The position numbers were made by a program, and so were the translations under genes. Shown piece after piece: positions 80 through 10,149 of a stretch of 10,280 nt of DNA (within the stretch, counting starts at the first letter, position 1; every line of letters starts with the position of its first letter). The notes below the pieces were generated by a model. It ran no database searches, was not told the origin of the DNA, and worked only from the letters and a program-made list of their open reading frames with translations. Origin of the DNA: a bacterium (GTDB lineage: Bacteria; Cyanobacteriota; Vampirovibrionia; Gastranaerophilales; UBA9971); contig JBAWVS010000067.1 in the NCBI GenBank assembly GCA_037147175.1, positions 1 to 10,280 of the forward strand, in the 5' to 3' direction.

Positions 80-874
80 ATGGATAAAATAATTATGGGG
101 TTTATTTCAACTTTGGCACAGGTAGGTTTATACGATATAAACATTAAGTTTTTGAGCATAATAACCCCTCTGGTAACATCGTTAAGCGCTGTTATACAAC
201 CACGAATAGCAAATATATACGCAAAGGGTGATGATGCAAAAATCAAGGAGTATACGACATTAACTATAAAAGTGATGCTATTTCTGACTTTTCCTCTGAT
301 TGCCATATTGATTGGCATATCCGATAATCTTGTGCAGTGGTTGTTTAAAGGAGAATTTCTGAAACTCGCTTTTTTAATTAAAATAACATCTCCCATTATT
401 TTATTCCTGACGGTGGGAAGTATTTTTGGAACTCAAATTTTAATACCTACGGGAAAAGAGAAAGATTTTACTATCTCGTTAGTAATTGGTGCAGTAGTGA
501 ATGTATATTTCAATTTCCTTCTCATTCCAAAATACGGAGCTGTGGGAGGTTGTATAGCTTACGCTTTATGCCAACTGTCTGTGTCCATGTACCAGTTTTT
601 TGTCACGAAAAAATATATCAATTTGGAAGAAATATCGCAAGATTTGTGGAAATACCTTGTTGGAGCTGTAATTGTGTTTGTTTCACTTTCCTTTGTCGAT
701 AAACTTCAACTAAGTCATCTCTGTATTCTCATAGTGCATTTAATAACAGCTGTTTTGGTGTATATTTTGGCTACAAGTCTTTTAAAGACTGATATAAACA
801 TATTTTTAGCATCTAAAGTAAGTGAATTCATTAGGGGAAGGGAGAAAGAGCTGAATGAAAATATTAATATATAG
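80..874 (+). CDS. wzx: Wzx-type polysaccharide flippase (C-terminal part)
   Basis: Inner-membrane flippase of the MATE-like polysaccharide transporter superfamily, expected to move lipid-linked repeat units from the cytoplasmic to the outer face of the membrane. The 264 residues are strongly hydrophobic. They include family-like stretches such as DKIIMGFISTLAQVGLY (2-18), a P-R motif near residues 41-42 after the first long helix, and the late segment with GTQILIPTGKEKD, then a helix with N-x-x-x-N-F-L-L-I-P and G-A-V-G-G. Full-length Wzx proteins are usually 400-480 residues, and the first visible motif normally lies around residue 200, so about the N-terminal 40 percent is absent. The ATG at 80 has no ribosome binding site and is probably not a natural start. 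The gene ends overlapping the next by 20 bases, which indicates an operon. Family assignment is firm, but whether the gene is functional is doubtful. Confidence 0.8.
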   Translation: MDKIIMGFISTLAQVGLYDINIKFLSIITPLVTSLSAVIQPRIANIYAKGDDAKIKEYTTLTIKVMLFLTFPLIAILIGISDNLVQWLFKGEFLKLAFLIKITSPIILFLTVGSIFGTQILIPTGKEKDFTISLVIGAVVNVYFNFLLIPKYGAVGGCIAYALCQLSVSMYQFFVTKKYINLEEISQDLWKYLVGAVIVFVSLSFVDKLQLSHLCILIVHLITAVLVYILATSLLKTDINIFLASKVSEFIRGREKELNENINI

Positions 875-2054
875 CGATGCGGAAAATTTTAATTTTTTCA
901 GAAAAATGGTGAAACCTCTAAACGAACTGGGACATGAGGTTCATTTTTTAACAAACAATTTTTACAATTACTTAAAAGTTAAAAAACAAGGCTATAAATT
1001 TTTTCTGGTAAAAAGAGCCGATAAAAAATCATCTGTCGAAAATATTCCTGATAGTCTGCTGATGGGGCTTATAAATTTAAAAAACGCAAAAAAACTTTAT
1101 TCAAGCATTGTTTTTACGTTAGAAACTCTTAATGACAAGCATAACTATAATTTATTTATGACATGGAACGGTCATAACATTATTGGTCAGAGTTTTGAAA
1201 CTTTTGCAAAGCAACATAATATAAAAATGCTTTATCTTGAAATTGCAAACATTGACGGAAAAATATTTGCCGATCCTCAAGGTGTTAATGCGCTTTCATC
1301 TTTGTTTGCAAATCCAGAAATTCTTGAGGAGTTTGAAGTTGATGAAGCAAAATTTGAGGAATGGCGAGAAAATTATTTAAAGAATAAATTGAAATCACAC
1401 ATTGTTCGTCAAGCTATTATTAAAAAAGTCGATTTAAAAGATTTGATCTTTAACTATATTTTAGGACTCTTTAAAAAATTTATTCTCGGAGTTCCCAATT
1501 TTCCTAAGATTTCTATGATCCATTTTTTCAAAAAAAGATTGAAAAATAAAGCTCAACAAAAGTACGGCTACGATGATTTAAACATAGAAAAAGAAAACTA
1601 TATTTTTTATCCTATGCAAGTTTCAAGCGATACTCAACTCATGATAAACAGTGATATAGATAATGCTCAAGCAATAGAGATTGCTTCGGCAAAAGCAAGA
1701 GAAAAAGGAATTAAACTTCTTGTAAAACCTCATCCTGCTGAAACAAACAAAGTTTTTATAAAGAAAATATTTGACTTAAAAGAAAAATACGGCTTTTACT
1801 TTGTAAAGCACAATACATTTCAGCTAATCAGCAATTCTGACGAAGTAATCACAATAAATTCAACAGTAGGACTGGAAGCAAAAATTCTTGACAAACCCGT
1901 AACCTTTTTAGGCAGAAGTTTTTTTGCTAAAATGAATAATAATATGCTAAAAAAATATATTATGGGCTATTTGATAGATGCTGATTATTTCAATAATGAG
2001 CCAATCAGAAAAGAGTCTGCGGTTAAAATAATTGAAAGAGTTAGAGTTTTATGA
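855..2054 (+). CDS. Capsule polysaccharide biosynthesis protein, KpsS/LipB-like
   Basis: A 399-residue soluble protein resembling the capsule synthesis/export family (Pfam Capsule_synth; KpsS, KpsC, LipB), whose studied members are beta-Kdo transferases building the linker between capsule and lipid. Visible marks are an N-terminal Rossmann-like start MKILIYSDAENFNFF, ADPQGVNALSSL (139-150; compare D-x-x-G-V-N-A-x-S), PMQVSSDTQL (253-262), VKPHPAE (290-296) and TINSTVGLEA (333-342). The last three form the nucleotide-sugar binding half of a GT-B-like fold. There is no signal peptide or membrane helix; residues 176-235 are rich in lysine and aromatic residues and may touch the membrane. The ATG at 855 lies inside the flippase end and is preceded by a purine-rich GGAG (841-844). 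Its stop overlaps the next start as ATGA. KpsS normally belongs to ABC-transporter capsules, so the exact reaction here is uncertain. Confidence 0.72.
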   Translation: MKILIYSDAENFNFFRKMVKPLNELGHEVHFLTNNFYNYLKVKKQGYKFFLVKRADKKSSVENIPDSLLMGLINLKNAKKLYSSIVFTLETLNDKHNYNLFMTWNGHNIIGQSFETFAKQHNIKMLYLEIANIDGKIFADPQGVNALSSLFANPEILEEFEVDEAKFEEWRENYLKNKLKSHIVRQAIIKKVDLKDLIFNYILGLFKKFILGVPNFPKISMIHFFKKRLKNKAQQKYGYDDLNIEKENYIFYPMQVSSDTQLMINSDIDNAQAIEIASAKAREKGIKLLVKPHPAETNKVFIKKIFDLKEKYGFYFVKHNTFQLISNSDEVITINSTVGLEAKILDKPVTFLGRSFFAKMNNNMLKKYIMGYLIDADYFNNEPIRKESAVKIIERVRVL

Positions 2055-3067
2055 GCAAACAAAGATTAGCTTGGCTTGACACAGGAAGAGGCTTAGGGGC
2101 TATTTGGGTTATGGCGGCTCACTTTATTCAACATTTCCCAATTCATTCACAAAGTGAACCTCTAATAAAAAACTATATTGTTTTAGGGAGGGCAGGTGTC
2201 GTTTTATTTTTTTGTATTTCTGGGTTTATAATCCCGTATACTTTGTTTAAATCAAACCTTAAAGATTTTATAATAAATAGAATTTTTAGATTGTATCCGA
2301 TTTACTGGTTTGCAATTCTTACATTAATTGTCATTGAATCAAAAAAGTTCGATTTTATCACATTGCTATCTAATCTACTTATGATACCAGGCTTTTTAGG
2401 CGTTAAATATATAATTTATGTTTTTTGGACTTTAGAAGTAGAATTAATTTTTTATATTTTATGTGGAATATATTATTCTAAAAACCTTTTAAACAATGAA
2501 AAATTCATTTCAAATAATATTTTCGTATTTTTGTTTTTATCCTTCTTATTTGCATTATTAAGACCTTATCTACATATTCCAGCCATAATTTTTTTGGGAT
2601 TGGCTGTTATGTTTATAGGCGTAAGAGTTTATATTAAAAAGTCATTGGATTTCAAATTTTTCATTATATTTTTACTTTCGGTCATTCCTATTAGCTTTTT
2701 AGAAAAAAAATCATTGTTTTTAAGTTTTATGCCTGCTTACTTTTTAGGCTTGAGCAGTTTTATAACACTTTACAATCTGCAAAATTTAAAGGCTAATTTT
2801 TTATCTTTTTTGGGGAAAATAAGCTATTCTATTTATCTTTTGCATCTTCCTGTTGGCATATACTTTTTGAATTTCTATACCCTCAATTACAATGTTTATG
2901 CAGGCGTTGCGGCAGCCGTTGTTTCAGTAATTTTAACATCTTATCTTACTTATACTTTTATTGAGAAAAAGTTTACAAATATTGGAAGATACATTATAAA
3001 GCGTTATACAAACAGAGAATTGAATTATAATTGTATTGAGAAGGAAATTTTAATTAATGAAACTTAG
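2051..3067 (+). CDS. Acyltransferase-3 family membrane O-acyltransferase
   Basis: A 338-residue integral membrane protein of the acyltransferase-3 family (OafA/OacA/NodX type), expected to O-acetylate, or otherwise O-acylate, sugars of the surface glycan at the inner membrane. The family motif R-x(4)-D-x-x-R-G appears at residues 5-14 (RLAWLDTGRG), and the likely catalytic histidine is H24 in MAAHF. The segments GRAGVVLFFCISGFII (46-61), INRIFRLYPIYW (75-86) and FWTLEVELIFY (125-135) are all characteristic. About ten hydrophobic helices follow, then a polar tail from about residue 310. It lacks the extra SGNH domain found in larger members, so it is the short form. The start codon overlaps the preceding stop (ATGA), implying translational coupling. 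The acyl group and acceptor sugar cannot be read from sequence. Family confidence is high. Confidence 0.9.
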   Translation: MSKQRLAWLDTGRGLGAIWVMAAHFIQHFPIHSQSEPLIKNYIVLGRAGVVLFFCISGFIIPYTLFKSNLKDFIINRIFRLYPIYWFAILTLIVIESKKFDFITLLSNLLMIPGFLGVKYIIYVFWTLEVELIFYILCGIYYSKNLLNNEKFISNNIFVFLFLSFLFALLRPYLHIPAIIFLGLAVMFIGVRVYIKKSLDFKFFIIFLLSVIPISFLEKKSLFLSFMPAYFLGLSSFITLYNLQNLKANFLSFLGKISYSIYLLHLPVGIYFLNFYTLNYNVYAGVAAAVVSVILTSYLTYTFIEKKFTNIGRYIIKRYTNRELNYNCIEKEILINET

Positions 3068-4298
3068 ATTAACCTTGCCAAAGGAACTTAAATTGGCAAT
3101 TCCCAATAATATAAATTTAACTGAAATATGCGCTTGGCTTTGCGTTGTTTTTTCGGGGTTTTATCTTTACGGGACTCCGATAATAAGCCCTGTGTACATT
3201 AGTTTCTTTACTGTTCTTGCTGTTGTAATTTTCGGGTTGTTTACAGGAGATAAATGTTCTTTCAATAAGGTTTATATCTCTGCTTTAATGCCAATCGTTT
3301 ACATTGGAATCACTCAACCTTTACTTTTCCATTTAGAAGTTTTGGGGCAATGTATAGCTTTTGCTTATTTTATTTTGACTGTTTATTTATTAAACAATTT
3401 TGATAACAGAAAAATCGTAAAAATTTCTGAGCATTTTTTATGTTTTTCTACAATTCTATTTGCAATTGATACTTATTTAAGAGTGCATTCTGCTTTACAC
3501 GGTGCTAATTTGATCTCATCTTTTTATGCGTTTAAAGGTGGAAGTATTATGTGGAATGATACAAACGGTCTTGGTCTGCAAGTTGTTGTAATGTTCTTTC
3601 TTGCTTTATATTTAGATATAATTCAACCCAAAAAAAGTTATAAAGTCTACCAGCTTATTCTTTTCATAGTTACTATTTTATCTTTTTCAAGAATGTCAAT
3701 TGTTGCCATAGTTGTTTTCTGGATAATATTTAAACAAGCTCGTAAATTATTTTCTCTCAAAAATATTATTTTAATGCTGTCATTTGGGCTTGCTTTTTTG
3801 CTGTTACAAAACTGTTTTACGAGTTTAAATCTATTTGAAGGAAGAAGTTTAGACTCCAAGTTCTATGTAATTTCAAAAACAATTGATTATATTAAAAATG
3901 CCGACTTGAGCTCCATTCTTTTCGGAGTAGGCTTAGCTAATACCAAAAGTGTTCTTGGGTATTGGCCGGGGCATAATTATTTCAGTATGTATTTTGTCGG
4001 ATCAGGATTAATTGGATTTTTAGTTGTATCCTCTTTACTTTTTTATATTTCAATTAAAACAAGGTTTAAAGCGTTAATAATTATTTTACCCATACTGTTT
4101 AACGGCTTTTCTGTCTATATTATGTATAATGCCTTCTTTTTTAGTTCATTGGCGATAATATACCTAATCGAAAGAAATTTAAGCCAAAAAAACGAGAATC
4201 TATATTTAGAGCCTGTCTTGTTAAAACCTTCTTGCTGTCATGCCGAACTTGTTTCAGCATCTGTCCAATTGTTAGACTCTGAAACAAGTTCAGGGTGA
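3057..4298 (+). CDS. wzy: Wzy-like O-antigen/capsule polymerase
   Basis: A 413-residue polytopic membrane protein with about 11-12 hydrophobic segments, fitting the O-antigen ligase/polymerase superfamily (Wzy/WaaL). These proteins join lipid-linked repeat units on the outer face of the inner membrane. Supporting signs are SFSRMSIVA (209-217; compare the S-R motif), a polar periplasmic loop at about 252-305, and FGVGLANTK (289-297) followed by W-P-G-H-N-Y (303-308) and G-S-G-L-I-G-F (315-321), a pattern typical of the family. It overlaps the previous gene by 11 bases and has AAGGA at 3041-3045. An oddity is that codons 394-413, starting C-H-A-E-L-V-S-A-S, lie in a palindromic repeat that also supplies the stop. 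The native C terminus has probably been replaced by repeat-derived sequence beyond the last helix, so activity may be intact. Polymerase versus ligase cannot be separated from sequence alone; context favours Wzy. Confidence 0.82.
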   Translation: MKLRLTLPKELKLAIPNNINLTEICAWLCVVFSGFYLYGTPIISPVYISFFTVLAVVIFGLFTGDKCSFNKVYISALMPIVYIGITQPLLFHLEVLGQCIAFAYFILTVYLLNNFDNRKIVKISEHFLCFSTILFAIDTYLRVHSALHGANLISSFYAFKGGSIMWNDTNGLGLQVVVMFFLALYLDIIQPKKSYKVYQLILFIVTILSFSRMSIVAIVVFWIIFKQARKLFSLKNIILMLSFGLAFLLLQNCFTSLNLFEGRSLDSKFYVISKTIDYIKNADLSSILFGVGLANTKSVLGYWPGHNYFSMYFVGSGLIGFLVVSSLLFYISIKTRFKALIIILPILFNGFSVYIMYNAFFFSSLAIIYLIERNLSQKNENLYLEPVLLKPSCCHAELVSASVQLLDSETSSG

Positions 4299-4300
4299 CA
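4236..4300. repeat. Palindromic repeat overlapping the wzy 3' end
   Basis: Two 22-base arms (4236-4257 and 4279-4300) are reverse complements at 19 of 22 positions and flank a 21-base centre. Each arm contains the core AACTTGTTTCAG or its complement, and the outer ends are TGTCA/TGACA. Read in the wzy frame it encodes C-H-A-E-L-V-S-A-S then S-E-T-S-S-G and a stop (4296-4298). I recognise this peptide signature as one that recurs at protein C termini and between genes in several unrelated bacteria, which marks it as a dispersed, possibly mobile, palindromic element rather than part of the polymerase. No second copy is visible in this window, so the dispersed nature is inferred. Confidence 0.75.
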
Positions 4301-4391: not shown

Positions 4392-5222
4392 ATGAAAATA
4401 GCAGTTTTATATATAGGGCTTGGTCGATATACTGTATTCTGGGAAGGGTTTTATAAAAGTTGCGAGCAATTCTTTCTTCCAAAACATGAAAAAACATACT
4501 TTGTTTTTACCGACAATGAAAGTTTAATGTTTGAAAAAGAGAGTAACGTGGTTAAAATTCATCAGGAAAACCTGAAATTTCCATATGCAACTTTATTGCG
4601 ATTTGAGATGTTTAGTAGAATTAGAACGCAATTAAAAGAGTTTGATTATATTTTCTTTTTAAATGGAAATATGGAATTTGTTGACTTTGTCAATGAAGAA
4701 TGTTTGCCCACAAAAGAAAATGACGGGCTGGTTGCAGGTCTTTTGCTGGCCAGACGTTTTTTTAATAATCCGGACAGGTTACCCTATGAAAGAAACCCTC
4801 TATCAAATGCTTATATACCCTACGGTAAAGGTACCCATTATTTACAGGGTGGCTTAAATGGCGGAATGGCGGATGAGTATTTAGAAATGATTGATAAACT
4901 TAACGTCGCAATCAAGGAAGACTTGGCAAATGGTATTATAGCAGTTGTGAACGATGAATCACATTTGAATAAATACCTGTTAGACAAAAATCCTCTTATT
5001 TTAGAACCTAATTATATGTATTCTGATCAGGCTTTTATGGAAGAATATAAGAAAAATAAAAAAATTGTTGTACTCAATAAGCAAGAGCCAAAATGGGGAG
5101 GAATGGACTACTTAAGAGGTAAAAGAGATAAACCAATTGTAGGATTCGAGGCATTTATTTGTTCAATAATTTTATTTTTTAAAAAACAGTACAGGGTATA
5201 CGTTAATAAATTTCTTTATTGA
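4392..5222 (+). CDS. GT6 (ABO blood-group family) alpha-1,3-Gal/GalNAc transferase
   Basis: A 276-residue family GT6 enzyme, related to human ABO transferases and bacterial members such as E. coli O86 WbnI and Bacteroides ovatus BoGT6a. It should add Gal or GalNAc in alpha-1,3 linkage to a galactose, which is normally alpha-1,2-fucosylated. Evidence: FYKSCEQFF (20-28), YFVFTD (36-41), RFEMF (70-74), FFLNGNMEF (88-96), ERNPLSNAYIP (133-143), HYLQGGLNGG (149-158) and NDESHLNKYLL (187-197), with the catalytic glutamate at 189. The metal-binding D-x-D of animal enzymes is N-G-N (91-93), as known for bacterial GT6 enzymes, which are metal-independent. There is no N-terminal anchor; residues 249-276 form an unusual hydrophobic, then basic and aromatic, tail that could bind the membrane. 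The start is well supported by AAGGA at 4382-4386, five bases upstream. Donor choice is unresolved: by my alignment human positions 266/268 are Gln/Gly, and Gly268 is the A (GalNAc) type. Confidence 0.92.
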   Translation: MKIAVLYIGLGRYTVFWEGFYKSCEQFFLPKHEKTYFVFTDNESLMFEKESNVVKIHQENLKFPYATLLRFEMFSRIRTQLKEFDYIFFLNGNMEFVDFVNEECLPTKENDGLVAGLLLARRFFNNPDRLPYERNPLSNAYIPYGKGTHYLQGGLNGGMADEYLEMIDKLNVAIKEDLANGIIAVVNDESHLNKYLLDKNPLILEPNYMYSDQAFMEEYKKNKKIVVLNKQEPKWGGMDYLRGKRDKPIVGFEAFICSIILFFKKQYRVYVNKFLY

Positions 5223-5282
5223 AATCATAAAAAAATCATCCGCAAAAAATTGGAGCAGTATTAAAGTTGAATTGGTGGAATT

Positions 5283-6014
5283 GTGAAAAATACGGAATGT
5301 AAAAAAACAGCTGAATATTTTAATGAAAATGTACCTGAGTATTGCCTCGAGAGATTTGGGTTAATCGTTGATTTTATTAAAAAACAGGTAAAATCAGATA
5401 GCAATTTTCTTGATATAGGATGTGGGGCTGGAAATGTACTTCAAATGATACAAGATCAAACAGGAATACAAGATCTTTACGGAATGGACATAGCCGAAAA
5501 TTATTTGAATGAAACAGGCAAAAAAGTTGAATTTAAGTCAATACTGGGTTCTATTCTCGATGAAGAAATAGTAGGAAAATATAAAAATAAATTTGATTTT
5601 GTCATGCTGTCAGCAGTATTGCATCATTTAATAGGTGACTCAAGGGCGGATTCTATTGAACTGGCAAAAAAAGCTTTGGATAATGCTTTTCAACTTGTTA
5701 AACCTCAAGGGTACTTTCTGCTCGTAGAGCCTGCTTATGCACCGACAATTTCAAATGATTTCATCTTTAACATTAAAAAATTCTTTTCTTCTTTTGTTGA
5801 TGGTCGAATTGAATTGTTTACTCAAGGTCTCAATATTGGGGATCCTATAGTTTCCTTTTTAACTCCCGATCAGATTAAAAACATGATGCAAAATATAGAC
5901 AACAATGAACTTTTAGGAGAAAAAATCAGTTCCAATGGTGTTCCTTTGGCGATGAGGTTTTTATTTGTTAAAGGAACCTACAATACCAATTTTATAAGCC
6001 GAAAAATAAAATAA
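5283..6014 (+). CDS. Class I SAM-dependent methyltransferase
   Basis: A 243-residue class I methyltransferase. SAM-binding motif I is FLDIGCGAGN (42-51), the second strand ends in YGMDIA (66-71) with the acidic ribose-binding residue D69, and FDFVMLSAVLHHL (104-116) is the motif IV region. LVKPQGYFLLVEP (138-150) is the following strand. The acceptor cannot be read from sequence; in this setting a sugar hydroxyl or amino group of the repeat unit is the natural guess, but a capping or unrelated role is possible. The start is GTG: no ATG lies between the upstream in-frame TGA (5268-5270) and this codon, and GGTGGA (5274-5279) serves as a somewhat close Shine-Dalgarno site. It lies 60 bases after the GT6 gene on the same strand and is probably co-transcribed. 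It is the last plus-strand gene before the convergence point. Confidence 0.85.
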   Translation: MKNTECKKTAEYFNENVPEYCLERFGLIVDFIKKQVKSDSNFLDIGCGAGNVLQMIQDQTGIQDLYGMDIAENYLNETGKKVEFKSILGSILDEEIVGKYKNKFDFVMLSAVLHHLIGDSRADSIELAKKALDNAFQLVKPQGYFLLVEPAYAPTISNDFIFNIKKFFSSFVDGRIELFTQGLNIGDPIVSFLTPDQIKNMMQNIDNNELLGEKISSNGVPLAMRFLFVKGTYNTNFISRKIK

Positions 6015-6049
6015 TTAAGCAGATGATGTTTTAAGCTTTAAATAAGCAA

Positions 6050-6772
6050 TTATTCAACCAAGACAAAAAGTGAATATCCGCCCAGTAATTTAGCAGAAAA
6101 ATCAACATTGATTTTGTTCAAGATGCGTCTGGGTATATGCAGCATTCTTGATTTAAGGCTTATGCTTTTACTAATTCCGGCTAATTCCAGAACACTGTTA
6201 CCATAATGCCAATCCAAAACTTTATACCCGGCATCTTCGAGAACTGCCAAGAAAATGTCTTTATTGAAATAATGTATATGTCCGTATTTTTCTCTGGATT
6301 CCAAATAGTAATGACCAAATAAAGCTTTTAGAGCAAATATTTCTAAGGGAACGTTAAAAACTTTATATTTGCCTTTGTTTTTGACTTGCTTTAAAAAACC
6401 TATGTAATCATCTATATGTTCTACAATATCAATTAAAAGCAGCGCATCGTAGTGTTTATCAGATTCGGTCAAAAAATCTTTTAACTGAAAATTCAATCTT
6501 GCTTTTTCCTTGTTTTTACATATTTGGTAGGCATCTTCAGAAACTTCATACCCGCAGAATGTTATATCTTCTTCCATTTCATTATAAAGATTGTTTAATA
6601 TTTCTCCGGCACCGCAACCTATTTCACTTATAGTTTTTGGCTTAATATTATTTTTATCGAGCAATTTAAGTATCTGTAAGGCTTTCCAGGGAGAATCCTC
6701 TGTATGCCAGGTGGGATTGTTCTCTAAATACTGACCGTCATTATATAAATTAGTTTTTTCAATATCATTCAT
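6050..6772 (-). CDS. Class I SAM-dependent methyltransferase (Methyltransf_23-like)
   Basis: A 240-residue class I methyltransferase, clearly different from the one at 5283-6014. Motif I is ISEIGCGAGEI (48-58), the acidic residue closing strand 2 is E76 in FCGYEVSE, and LLLIDIVEHIDD (111-122) is the motif IV region. HIHYFN (165-170) is a pattern common in this subgroup just before the last helices. The N-terminal 25 residues (N-D-G-Q-Y, N-P-T-W-H) resemble a substrate-capping segment. Target unknown: a sugar of the repeat unit or the glycan end is likely from context. The start is firm, with AGGAGA (6783-6778) five bases upstream on the minus strand. It is last in the minus-strand run, 75 bases after the fucosyltransferase, and the only gene of that run with a real gap before it. 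Confidence 0.84.
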   Translation of the reverse strand: MNDIEKTNLYNDGQYLENNPTWHTEDSPWKALQILKLLDKNNIKPKTISEIGCGAGEILNNLYNEMEEDITFCGYEVSEDAYQICKNKEKARLNFQLKDFLTESDKHYDALLLIDIVEHIDDYIGFLKQVKNKGKYKVFNVPLEIFALKALFGHYYLESREKYGHIHYFNKDIFLAVLEDAGYKVLDWHYGNSVLELAGISKSISLKSRMLHIPRRILNKINVDFSAKLLGGYSLFVLVE

Positions 6773-6811
6773 GTTTTTCTCCTGCTGTATTTTTTTATTT
6801 TAAAAGTGGCA

Positions 6812-6829
6812 TACTGCCCGTTGGCAGTA
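6812..6829. repeat. Short perfect hairpin between fucosyltransferase and methyltransferase genes
   Basis: TACTGCC (6812-6818) and GGCAGTA (6823-6829) pair perfectly over 7 bases with a 4-base loop, in the 75-base gap of the minus-strand run. On that strand it is followed by TGCCACTTTTAAAATAAA, so a T run starts only 6 bases past the stem. It could be a weak terminator, an attenuator or an mRNA-processing hairpin that lowers expression of the last gene. It may also be chance. Confidence 0.35.
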
Positions 6830-6847
6830 ATACTGTTGTATTTGACG

Positions 6848-7663
6848 TCATGTGGTTATCCATTCTTTGACATACAAATCCTTTGAACTCACATTTGAAA
6901 GGATTCCGAACCACCTTTTAGGAGCAAAAATCAGTTTGCGGGGATTTTTGCCAAGCCAAGAAGCCCACCAGCTAAATGAACTGTTGGCAATAATAAAATG
7001 TTGGCAGTTACTCATTAACATCAAGTCCAAACACCCACTAGAATCGTTGTTATTGTCAACAATCGTCATTTTGTCATTTATTTTGAAATTCTTTTTTACC
7101 CAGTCAGTATCATCAGAAAATATATAAAAATGTGGATTTTCAATTTTGCGGATAATAAAACTCATTGCTTTTTTGTAATAATTTAAAGAACAGGTTCCGT
7201 GAACCAATCTGGCTTTTAGTGTTGAAACATAATCGCCACGTCTAATATGGATACAAACAGAATTGGAACTTTTAATTTTATCCAACAATTCTTGATTTGT
7301 GTCATCGGGAGTTTCTTTAAAAGTAAACTCTTTCCTTATTATGGTTTCAATGTCTTTAAAATATTTTTCACTTTGCCAATAACCGTCAAGATAAACATTG
7401 TCGGGCAAGTCCAGCACTTTAGAATCGAAATGAAAATGCTTCTCCTTTCGATAATTTTCGGATTTTATTTTGTCAATTTCATCCTGAGTTGCTATTTCAG
7501 CGTTTATATTGAAAACATTAAGCTGAAATTTGCGATTTCCATACTTTGCAAAATCGGAAATAGCAAGTTTCAACTCGGTATTGTTCTTTTCAGCAAGACA
7601 AAGTCCAACCGCATACTGAAACATCTGATTTCCTATTCCGCCGATAATTTTTACTACAATCAT
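6848..7663 (-). CDS. GT11 alpha-1,2-fucosyltransferase
   Basis: A 271-residue glycosyltransferase family 11 enzyme, expected to move L-fucose from GDP-fucose to the 2-OH of galactose, forming an H-antigen-type Fuc-alpha-1,2-Gal. Seen: the family N terminus GGIGNQMFQYAVG (8-20), the GDP-fucose binding motif HIRRGDYV (139-146), FYIFSDD (179-185) and the C-terminal block DLMLMSNCQHFIIANSSFSW (213-232) continuing W-A-S-W-L. These match bacterial enzymes such as E. coli WbnK/WbiQ and Helicobacter FutC. Length is normal for a compact member and there is no membrane segment. The ATG start follows the GT2 stop by 3 bases; AGGAG lies 13 bases upstream (7681-7677), rather far, so translational coupling with GT2 is likely. 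GDP-fucose synthesis genes are absent from the window. Fucose-to-galactose alpha-1,2 is the usual activity, but a few GT11 members use other acceptors. Confidence 0.92.
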   Translation of the reverse strand: MIVVKIIGGIGNQMFQYAVGLCLAEKNNTELKLAISDFAKYGNRKFQLNVFNINAEIATQDEIDKIKSENYRKEKHFHFDSKVLDLPDNVYLDGYWQSEKYFKDIETIIRKEFTFKETPDDTNQELLDKIKSSNSVCIHIRRGDYVSTLKARLVHGTCSLNYYKKAMSFIIRKIENPHFYIFSDDTDWVKKNFKINDKMTIVDNNNDSSGCLDLMLMSNCQHFIIANSSFSWWASWLGKNPRKLIFAPKRWFGILSNVSSKDLYVKEWITT

Positions 7664-7666
7664 TTC

Positions 7667-8488
7667 TTAGTGCTTTCTCCTCAAAATCATATTATATATC
7701 AATTTCATAAGGTCATAAGGCATTATTCTCAGGCAGAACTTTAAAAATACATTTCTGGAAAATTCAAAAATGTTTATAAATCCAATTTCTAGAAAATATA
7801 AGTACAATTTAAATTCTTTTTCTATATAAAAAGAACCTTTACGGCGTTTTATCATAGTGTTTCCTGCTCGAGCATTAACCAAACATTCGGGAATATTAGC
7901 CATTTTCATTCCCAGCTTAAGCATTCTTGCCCACAAGTAATAATCTTCAAAATAAAGAAATGTTTGATAGTTGCCTGCATTCAGGACAGCAGTTTTTCTG
8001 AACATGACAGTCATATGGTTTAAAGGATTTCTCCATTTTGCATACTTAGCTATATCTTCGGGTCTTATTGGAACGCTTTTTACTGCATAAATATTTTCAG
8101 GTTCATCTTTAAATTCTGAAATAAAACTTCCAACTATGGAAATGTCGGGATTTTTTTTAAAAACGCCGATTTGTTTTTCAAAACGGTCATTTCTGGCAAC
8201 ATCGTCTGAGTCCATTCTTGCTATAATTTCAAAAGAGCAGTTTTCTACGCCAATTCTTAAAGCATTTCCCAGTCCTTGATTTTCTTCCAAAGCGATCACT
8301 TTGAATAAGTGGGAAAATTGTGATTTATATTCATTAATAATTTTTTCTAATTCAACAGTTAAAGGTCCGTCTTTAACTAATAAGATTTCCGAGGGTTTAA
8401 TCGTTTGATTTATAATGCTGTCGAGAGCTTTTCTTAAATACTCAGCCTTTTCTTTTTCATATAAAGACATCAATACGCTAAAATTCAT
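7667..8488 (-). CDS. GT2 family glycosyltransferase, WbnJ/WbiP/AmsE-like
   Basis: A 273-residue cytoplasmic GT-A enzyme of family GT2. Seen, numbered from the ATG: NFSVLMSLY (2-10), LRKALDSIINQT (18-29), LLVKDGP (36-42), EENQGLGNALRIG (68-80), the donor/metal motif ARMDSDD (90-96), NPLNHMTVMFRK (154-165) and YFEDYYLWARM (179-189), which carries the likely catalytic acid pair E181-D182. This set resembles E. coli O86 WbnJ and O127 WbiP (beta-1,3-galactosyltransferases acting on GalNAc) and Erwinia AmsE, so transfer of galactose from UDP-Gal is my best guess. An in-frame GTG at 8503 would add five residues (278), but its only purine-rich stretch is too close, and family members begin with M-x-F-S-V-L, so I prefer the ATG at 8488. 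It overlaps galE by 11 bases and ends 3 bases before the fucosyltransferase start. Confidence 0.87.
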   Translation of the reverse strand: MNFSVLMSLYEKEKAEYLRKALDSIINQTIKPSEILLVKDGPLTVELEKIINEYKSQFSHLFKVIALEENQGLGNALRIGVENCSFEIIARMDSDDVARNDRFEKQIGVFKKNPDISIVGSFISEFKDEPENIYAVKSVPIRPEDIAKYAKWRNPLNHMTVMFRKTAVLNAGNYQTFLYFEDYYLWARMLKLGMKMANIPECLVNARAGNTMIKRRKGSFYIEKEFKLYLYFLEIGFINIFEFSRNVFLKFCLRIMPYDLMKLIYNMILRRKH

Positions 8489-9464
8489 AATTATTTCGCT
8501 CACATTCCCAATTCAAAGCTGTTTTGCATATAATCTCTAAATCATTATATTTAGGATTCCAGCCAATTTTCTCGATTATTTTAGAGTTATCTGCAATGAT
8601 ACAAGCAGGATCTCCTTGTCTTTTTTCTACAATTTCAACAGCGAAGTCTTTTCCGCTTACTTTTTTCATTGTATTTATAACTTCTTTTACACTATAACCG
8701 AAACCATATCCGCAGTTAAAAATATCACTTGCGTTATTATCTAAATAGTTAAGAGCTTTTATGAGTGCATCAGCTAAATCATCAACGTGAATATAATCTC
8801 GTACCCCTGTTCCGTCAGCAGTATTAAAATCATCTCCGTAAATATACATTTTTTCTCTATTACCAAGAGCAGTTTCCGCCGCTACTTTTATCAGGTGAGT
8901 AGCATTAGGGTAGCATTGCCCGATTCTTCCTTTTATATCAGCACCCGCAACATTAAAATAGCGCAGTATGACATATTTAAAATCTTTATGAGCAACAGTA
9001 ATATCTTGAATGATTCTTTCACTCATTAGTTTACTCATTCCGTAGGGGTTTATCGGATTTAATACATTACTTTCTTTTACAGGCAACTGAGTAGACTCAT
9101 CATAAACTGCCGCTGTAGATGAAAAAATAAATTTGTTTATATTGTGCTTAATACATAATTTAACTAAATTTGCAGTGTTAATTGTGTTGTTAAAATAATA
9201 TTTTAACGGATTTTCTACTGATTCAGGCACAACAATAGATGCAGCAAAATGAACAACAGCATTTATTTTATTATTTATCAATATATTTTCTATTTTATCT
9301 ATTTCAGATAAATCTACTTGAAACAGCTTGCCAAATAAAATATTTTTTACAAAACCGGTTGATAAATTATCAATTATATAGATATTATGGTCAGTTTCTT
9401 CCCCGAGTTGTTTGACAAAATGACTTCCTATATAGCCTGCGCCGCCTGTAACTAATATGTTCAT
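8478..9464 (-). CDS. galE: UDP-glucose 4-epimerase
   Basis: A 328-residue extended short-chain dehydrogenase that interconverts UDP-glucose and UDP-galactose with bound NAD; some relatives also act on UDP-GlcNAc/UDP-GalNAc. Seen: the NAD-binding GGAGYIGSH (7-15), DNLSTG (32-37), FSSTAAVY (114-121) with T117 at the catalytic Ser/Thr position, the Y-x-x-x-K pair Y141 and K145 (YGMSK), RYFNVAGA (168-175), GTGVRDYIHVDDLADA (218-233) and KRQGDPA (281-287). Length and motif order are those of an intact GalE. At the position of E. coli Tyr299, which restricts that enzyme to non-acetylated sugars, my alignment gives Ile289, so acceptance of N-acetylated sugars is not ruled out. It starts 1 base after the sugar transferase stop and overlaps the next gene, so it belongs to this operon and probably supplies UDP-Gal to the GT2 and GT6 enzymes. 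Confidence 0.95.
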   Translation of the reverse strand: MNILVTGGAGYIGSHFVKQLGEETDHNIYIIDNLSTGFVKNILFGKLFQVDLSEIDKIENILINNKINAVVHFAASIVVPESVENPLKYYFNNTINTANLVKLCIKHNINKFIFSSTAAVYDESTQLPVKESNVLNPINPYGMSKLMSERIIQDITVAHKDFKYVILRYFNVAGADIKGRIGQCYPNATHLIKVAAETALGNREKMYIYGDDFNTADGTGVRDYIHVDDLADALIKALNYLDNNASDIFNCGYGFGYSVKEVINTMKKVSGKDFAVEIVEKRQGDPACIIADNSKIIEKIGWNPKYNDLEIICKTALNWECERNNYEF

Positions 9465-9465
9465 T

Positions 9466-10149
9466 TTATCCGTGCCTTCCTGATAATGCCATGAATACAG
9501 CTTTTACAAGTATACTGAAGTCCCAAAACAAGTTTCTGTGTTTAATATAATAAAGTTCGTATCTTAGTTTTTCTATTGCATCTTCTGTAGATGCCCCATA
9601 TCTGTACATTATTTGGGCCCAACCTGTCCAACCGGGAGTTACCCAGTGTCTTCTTTGATAAAAAGGAATTTTTTTTTCAAGTATCTGTGTGAATTCAGGT
9701 CTTTCAGGGCGAGGACCTACCAGACTCATTTCTCCTTTTATTATATTAAGCATTTGAGGAAGTTCATCGAATCTTAACTTTCTGGCAATGCGTCCTATTT
9801 TTGTTACTCTCGTATCTTTATTGTTGTTTACAGCCCAAACAGCGCCATCTTTTTCAGCATTTTCTATCATTGTTCTGAATTTAAGCATTTCAAAGATTTT
9901 GCCATTTTTTCCAACTCTTTCCTGCGTATAAAATATTTTGCCTCCGTCAGCTATTTTTGTTGATACCGCAAGAATAATCATTATTGGCAATGTCACGAAT
10001 GATATTATTGAAGCCCCTATAATATCAAAAATCCGCTTGCATAATCTGTAAATTGGTCGATGTATCCTTGTCAAATCATAAATAAACCACTCGGGGGTTA
10101 TTGTTTTTACAGCAACCTTTAAAGTTAAAAGTTCATAAAGTTCTGACAT
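9466..10149 (-). CDS. Polyprenyl-phosphate sugar-1-phosphate transferase (initiating enzyme)
   Basis: Bacterial sugar transferase (PglC/WbaP/WcaJ family) that moves a sugar-1-phosphate from a nucleotide sugar to undecaprenyl phosphate and so starts each repeat unit. Seen: KRIFDIIGA (38-46), a hydrophobic re-entrant helix (44-64), FYTQERVGKNGKIF (73-86), LKFRTM (89-94), LRFDELPQ (125-132) with the catalytic D128-E129 pair, MSLVGPRPERPEF (141-153) and TPGWTGWAQI (171-180). The catalytic domain is complete. Residues 1-35 (LYELLTLKVAVKTI, PEWFIYDL) match the end of the extra N-terminal domain of long family members, not the start of a short one. The ATG at 10149 has no Shine-Dalgarno site and the frame is open to 10260, so this start is doubtful and the gene probably extended upstream. 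The sugar specificity cannot be read. Confidence 0.88.
   Translation of the reverse strand: MSELYELLTLKVAVKTITPEWFIYDLTRIHRPIYRLCKRIFDIIGASIISFVTLPIMIILAVSTKIADGGKIFYTQERVGKNGKIFEMLKFRTMIENAEKDGAVWAVNNNKDTRVTKIGRIARKLRFDELPQMLNIIKGEMSLVGPRPERPEFTQILEKKIPFYQRRHWVTPGWTGWAQIMYRYGASTEDAIEKLRYELYYIKHRNLFWDFSILVKAVFMALSGRHG

Follow-up and report, generated by a model that had tools for sequence, protein, structure and literature searches.

The window analysed here is a stretch of 10,280 nucleotides from a bacterium of the order Gastranaerophilales (assembly GCA_037147175.1, contig JBAWVS010000067.1), which encodes glycosyltransferases of the families GT6, GT11 and GT2 in a polysaccharide locus. We give about an even chance to the reading that this locus makes a fucosylated glycan, in which GT2 and GT11 would build a blood group H-like element and GT6 would act on another acceptor. 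The initial annotation had proposed that the three enzymes together make an A- or B-like glycan. The H-like part of that proposal is strengthened by GT2-GT11 fusions in relatives and by genes for GDP-fucose, but the A/B step is not supported, since acceptor residues of the GT6 have been lost. Judged from the sequence, an A- or B-like epitope is improbable and is unsupported by the GT6 of the window. Natural anti-A and anti-B antibodies, and glycans shared with the host, have been proposed to come from gut bacteria that display sugars resembling blood groups. The Gastranaerophilales, represented here by a gut-type, non-photosynthetic relative of the cyanobacteria, are seldom considered as bearers of such sugars; of three papers that mention both Gastranaerophilales and blood groups, none treats this topic, judged by title and count.

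Acceptor site of the GT6 enzyme

The GT6, GT11 and GT2 genes, the last beside galE, were recovered as open reading frames (ORFs) where the initial annotation had placed them (Table 1), with strong family scores. The GT6 frame is intact and codes for 276 residues that match Pfam Glyco_transf_6 (E = 2e-31) and NCBIfam Gltr_6 (270.5 bits, cut-off 250). Its best relative of solved structure is BoGT6a, the metal-independent A-type GT6 of Bacteroides ovatus (E = 5.6e-48). An AlphaFold2 model has a confident core, with a mean predicted local distance difference test score of 86 and 172 of the 276 residues at 90 or above. The structural comparison suggested by the initial annotation bore out the family assignment: the model superposes on BoGT6a (4ayj) as a GT-A fold with a Z score of 34.6 and a root mean square deviation of 1.2 over 231 residues, at 37% identity. 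The NXN motif is kept as Asn91-Gly-Asn93, as are the catalytic residues Asp188, Glu189, Lys230 and Arg242. By sequence and predicted fold the protein is a true GT6. The NXN motif predicts catalysis without a metal, as described for BoGT6a (PMC3961637). At the positions of human residues 266 and 268, which form the donor signature, the enzyme has Gln and Gly; the first is neither Leu nor Met, and the second is GTA-like.

The acceptor site is different. The acceptor contacts of BoGT6a were taken from its published structure, in which His122, Trp189 and His190 lie within the acceptor site or acceptor loop (PMC3961637). In the window GT6, the HPGFY segment reads LLARRFF, with an insertion of two residues, and the position of Thr134 is occupied by Pro131; the replacements for His122, Trp189 and His190 are listed in Table 1. 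In an alignment of 108 GT6 sequences, which includes many near-identical phage copies, the window GT6 is the only one that lacks all three of these residues together. Elsewhere in the alignment, every readable residue 190 is His and position 189 holds an aromatic residue; at 122 there is His, except in a clade of four members that has Trp. An alignment-based viral search gave 266 relatives. Its pattern required an N-terminal motif or [HN]DES, which slightly biases residue 190 in this set. When the window GT6 served as the only query, no viral relative was found.

All 75 GT6 sequences that are adjacent to a GT11 have His122 and, where readable, an aromatic residue 189 and His190. The human ABO transferases keep the HPGFY and WHDES segments, and the bovine alpha-1,3-galactosyltransferase keeps WHDES and has Gln at the His122 position. 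The change of Thr134 to Pro was considered as a mark of a non-fucosylated acceptor and was rejected, as Pro is found in 8 of the 75 GT11-adjacent sequences.

The simplest reading of these substitutions is a changed acceptor, and loss of function is possible. We tentatively suggest, at somewhat less than an even chance, that the enzyme is functional and that its pocket has been rebuilt for an acceptor other than an H-type structure or plain beta-galactose (Gal). If true, the enzyme would be the first representative of a new acceptor specificity among GT6 enzymes, situated beside a GT2-GT11 pair that would make H antigen.

The GT2-GT11 pair and GDP-fucose supply

The GT2 and GT11 genes are consecutive and share a reading frame; they are separated by a single stop codon and one more codon. 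In two other Gastranaerophilales genomes, G280 (locus L051, 7977–9728) and G036 (locus L054, 10352–12178), a single fused protein of 583–608 amino acids contains a GT2 domain followed by a GT11 domain, and in both the fused gene overlaps a GT6 gene. The GT2 and GT11 of the window are each about 35% identical to the matching domain of the fused proteins. When the fused GT2 domain is compared with the whole window genome, the window GT2 is its best match (37%, E = 1.3e-25; the next has E = 1.5e-22). A genome of the same family, G003, has a GT11 (46% identical) that overlaps a GT2, without a GT6, and a Clostridia metagenome-assembled genome with GT6 carries a GT2-GT11 fusion on the same contig. 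Because of these natural fusions and the adjacency in relatives, successive action of GT2 and GT11 is supported, although the exact linkage is not.

GT11 carries the HxRRxD motif, described for GT11 enzymes (PMC4202792), and is probably of the alpha-1,2 type; by sequence it matches no solved structure. Among NCBIfam models GT2 scores only with generic EpsE-like ones, below cut-off. It has the DxDD motif that is common to characterised beta-1,3-Gal/Glc transferases (PMC4202792). The motif was rejected as proof of beta-1,3-Gal transfer, as it is also present in 26 of the 30 GT2 proteins of our own sample. An H-like Fuc-alpha-1,2-Gal-beta-N-acetylhexosamine (HexNAc) element made by GT2 and GT11 is plausible from these comparisons, and rather more probable than not.

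A GDP-fucose pathway in the genome had been set beforehand as a test. The gene gmd was found on contig C4 (571 bits, cut-off 415) and fcl on contig C94, full length, with 492 bits, slightly under the cut-off of 500 (the next match has 81 bits); no fkp was found in the genome. Since gmd and fcl are both present, GDP-fucose can, as predicted from these genes, be made by the de novo route. The genome has three GT11 genes. Two of them belong to another polysaccharide locus on contig C49 (L045), which also contains several methyltransferase-like ORFs.

Proposed function and its alternatives

We propose that the window holds a portion of a polysaccharide locus of the lipid-linked, Wzx/Wzy type, in which a sugar-phosphate transferase would start the repeat unit and GalE would provide UDP-Gal. 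GT2 would attach a beta-linked Gal to HexNAc, and GT11 would attach alpha-1,2-fucose to this Gal, giving the H-like element. GT6 would add an alpha-1,3-linked Gal or N-acetylgalactosamine (GalNAc), without a metal. Its acceptor would not be the usual Fuc-alpha-1,2-Gal but a different one, located at another point of the same repeat or set in a modified context. We infer the donors and the linkages, in which order GT2 and GT11 act, and that all the genes serve one glycan.

A true A/B-like structure, (GalNAc or Gal)-alpha-1,3-(Fuc-alpha-1,2)-Gal-beta-1,3-HexNAc, would instead be produced if GT2, GT11 and GT6 acted in turn. All three families and the GDP-fucose genes are present, relatives have the fused GT2-GT11 beside GT6, and GT6 and GT11 are found together far beyond the window. 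Within the family, 1 of 10 genomes has a GT6, and in the phylum sample 11 of 386 do. GT11 occurs in 64 of the 386 and in 8 of the 11 with GT6 (Fisher p = 4e-5, with shared ancestry ignored), and it lies within 50 bases of GT6 in 75 of 103 other GT6 loci examined, mostly viral contigs and cyanophages. This coupling is real in general but not universal: the genomes G084 (L050) and G109 (L055), each with a completeness of 99%, contain GT6 but lack GT11 altogether. The presence of GT6 thus does not imply a GT11-made acceptor, contrary to the initial annotation, which held that GT6 enzymes generally need Fuc-alpha-1,2-Gal made by GT11. In the window itself, GT6 has lost His122, Trp189 and His190, positions at which GT11-adjacent GT6 enzymes keep His122 and, where readable, an aromatic residue and His190, and it is encoded on the opposite strand from GT11. 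We regard the A/B-like structure as improbable here. A locus with both GT6 and GT11 is insufficient ground for calling A/B mimicry, and the acceptor residues need checking.

If the GT6 had instead become degenerate or very weak after loss of its acceptor site, the locus would make an H-like fucosylated repeat only. Several conserved pocket residues are indeed lost, and on the donor side Leu replaces Thr10 and Phe replaces Trp66. As signs of decay these two donor-side changes were rejected, because they also occur in GT11-paired GT6 enzymes of Phocaeicola and Prevotella. The frame remains intact, the fold is confident and all tested catalytic residues are kept. At conserved columns, only 5 of 41 residues deviate in the window GT6, much like the 5 of 40 in the GT11-paired Prevotella enzyme, so that the window gene is not in general decay. 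Its end branch in the GT6 tree (0.71) is also close to that of BoGT6a (0.69). Degeneration is given a low probability. It is also unlikely, if slightly less so, that the two gene blocks of the window serve different glycans, GT6 with the plus-strand block and the GT2-GT11 pair with the minus-strand block, which would make their co-location uninformative. The convergent layout would suit such a division, as would the GT2-GT11 pair without GT6 in G003, the GT6 without GT11 in G084 and G109, and the separate C49 locus with its two further GT11 genes. However, wzx (here half of it) and an initiating transferase, which lie on different strands, are what one locus usually contains, and the G+C content is similar in both blocks (0.28–0.33).

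Several points weigh against a fucosylated glycan with a GT6 directed to another acceptor. The residue argument depends on one acceptor-bound bacterial structure, the nearest known relative of the window GT6 is only 51% identical, and an impaired enzyme is possible. The specificity of GT2 is drawn from association, as DxDD is not diagnostic, and one GT11, HhFT2, is an alpha-1,3-fucosyltransferase (PMC4202792). The name wzy is putative and unproven, being given for position and membrane-like character.

Other GT6 loci showed further variation. The GT6 enzymes of G084 and G109 have HPAFY and WHDES segments, and their acceptor would not be GT11-made. The GT6 of genome G348 (L057, 9883–10747) lies in two ORFs, apparently split by a stop or frameshift. 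In cyanophages and other viral contigs (L060, L063, L064, L065 and 80 IMG/VR loci), GT11 is commonly found beside a GT6 that is mostly of the DXD type.

Gene layout and comparison with known systems

The window is the entire contig C67 of a 2.66-Mb genome that is 99.4% complete, and the polysaccharide locus is therefore incomplete at both contig ends. RpoB of this genome shares 80% identity with the sequence from L018, a genome labelled Candidatus Gastranaerophilales, and 80–82% with those of two other members of the order, which are themselves 90–95% identical to the L018 sequence. Because of these identities, the RpoB comparison places the genome in the Gastranaerophilales but in a different family from most members.

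The plus-strand block runs from half of wzx to a methyltransferase and includes GT6; the minus-strand block runs from the glycosylphosphotransferase at the right end through galE, GT2 and GT11 to a second methyltransferase. The blocks are convergent and meet near 6014/6050. The initial annotation had placed the glycosyltransferases in one locus with wzx and wzy. Of wzx, the contig edge retains just the C-terminal half. The wzy-like protein has no family match in Pfam or NCBIfam and is named for its position and membrane-like character. The Wzx/Wzy complement of the window thus consists of half of wzx, this candidate wzy and the catalytic part of an initiating transferase. The genes at both contig ends are partial and have stops upstream (for the flippase, in frame at 41–43, ahead of the ATG at 80), as expected for broken genes or assembly-edge errors. 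A palindromic element at 4236–4300, with 27-nucleotide arms that are 81% complementary and an 11-nucleotide loop, provides the final codons of the wzy-like ORF, so that the encoded protein ends in CCHAELVSAS. Rfam and tandem-repeat scans of the window gave no match.

Table 1. Genes and GT6 acceptor segments of the window.
Feature	Position	Strand	Evidence
Wzx/MurJ-type flippase, C-terminal half	80–874	+	MurJ profile 250–435 of 451, E 5.4e-10; cut by contig edge or broken
Surface-carbohydrate protein of the Capsule_synth family (PF05159), perhaps a transferase	855–2054	+	Pfam E 1.8e-15
Acyltransferase family 3, likely sugar O-acylation	2051–3067	+	Pfam E 1.6e-22
Putative Wzy-like polymerase	3057–4298	+	Hydrophobic; position and composition only
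GT6 glycosyltransferase, NXN type, altered acceptor site	4392–5222	+	Pfam, NCBIfam, BoGT6a match, AlphaFold2 model
GT6 residues 117–124, LLLARRFF, at the BoGT6a HPGFY acceptor segment	4740–4763	+	Alignments; Leu119 replaces His122
GT6 Val186-Asn187, replacing conserved BoGT6a Trp189-His190	4947–4952	+	Alignments
S-adenosylmethionine-dependent methyltransferase	5283–6014	+	Pfam Methyltransf_23, 1.2e-14
S-adenosylmethionine-dependent methyltransferase	6050–6772	-	Pfam Methyltransf_23, 1.6e-14
GT11 fucosyltransferase, probable alpha-1,2 type	6848–7663	-	Pfam E 5.5e-40; HxRRxD motif HIRRGD
GT2, probable beta-Gal transferase	7667–8488	-	Pfam E 7.1e-26; DxDD motif DSDD
galE, UDP-glucose/UDP-galactose 4-epimerase	8478–9464	-	TIGR01179, 452 bits (cut-off 262)
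Polyprenyl glycosylphosphotransferase (initiating sugar transferase), catalytic part only	9466–10149	-	EpsB_2, 292 bits, below cut-off 393; profile 220–439 of 443

BoGT6a (PDB 4AYJ, 4CJ8) shares with the window GT6 its family, the NXN motif, the Asp-Glu pair and the Lys and Arg near the C terminus. The window enzyme differs from it in the loss of His122, Thr134, Trp189 and His190, in the longer HPGFY segment and in an extra C-terminal helix. In E. coli O86, WbnJ (GT2), WbnK/WbwK (GT11) and WbnI (GT6) represent the same three families, together with galE (compared by description; PMC4202792), but the GT6 of the window is altered and on the opposite strand. Distant DNA matches to a GT6 gene were sought in E. 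coli genomes, and none was found. The GT11-GT6 pairs of cyanophages and Bacteroidota (L060, L063, L066 and L067) resemble the window in bringing the two families together, in L066 with gmd and fcl. Unlike in the window, their genes overlap in one operon and their GT6 keeps His122 and His190; the phage enzymes have DXD where the window GT6 has NXN.

The cassettes of G280 (L051, 7977–10468) and G036 (L054, 9624–16493) have the same gene order. Instead of the separate GT2 and GT11 of the window, each has the one fused protein, and the overlapping GT6 keeps the HPGFY and WHDES segments. In G036, gmd and fcl are in the same gene run as the fusion and GT6. Because of the fusion, the overlapping GT6, its ABO-type acceptor segments and, in G036, the adjoining gmd and fcl, both genomes appear to be much better candidates for A/B mimicry than the window. 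Their GT6 enzymes are closely related sisters (tree support 100/99) that differ at the residue matching human 268, which is among the four distinguishing the human B from the A enzyme (PMC4202792): it is Ala, as in human B, in L051 and Gly, as in human A, in L054, which may serve as a lead rather than a result. With this gene order, the fusion and the kept acceptor residues, and in G036 the adjoining GDP-fucose genes, the A/B hypothesis is directly testable in G036 and G280.

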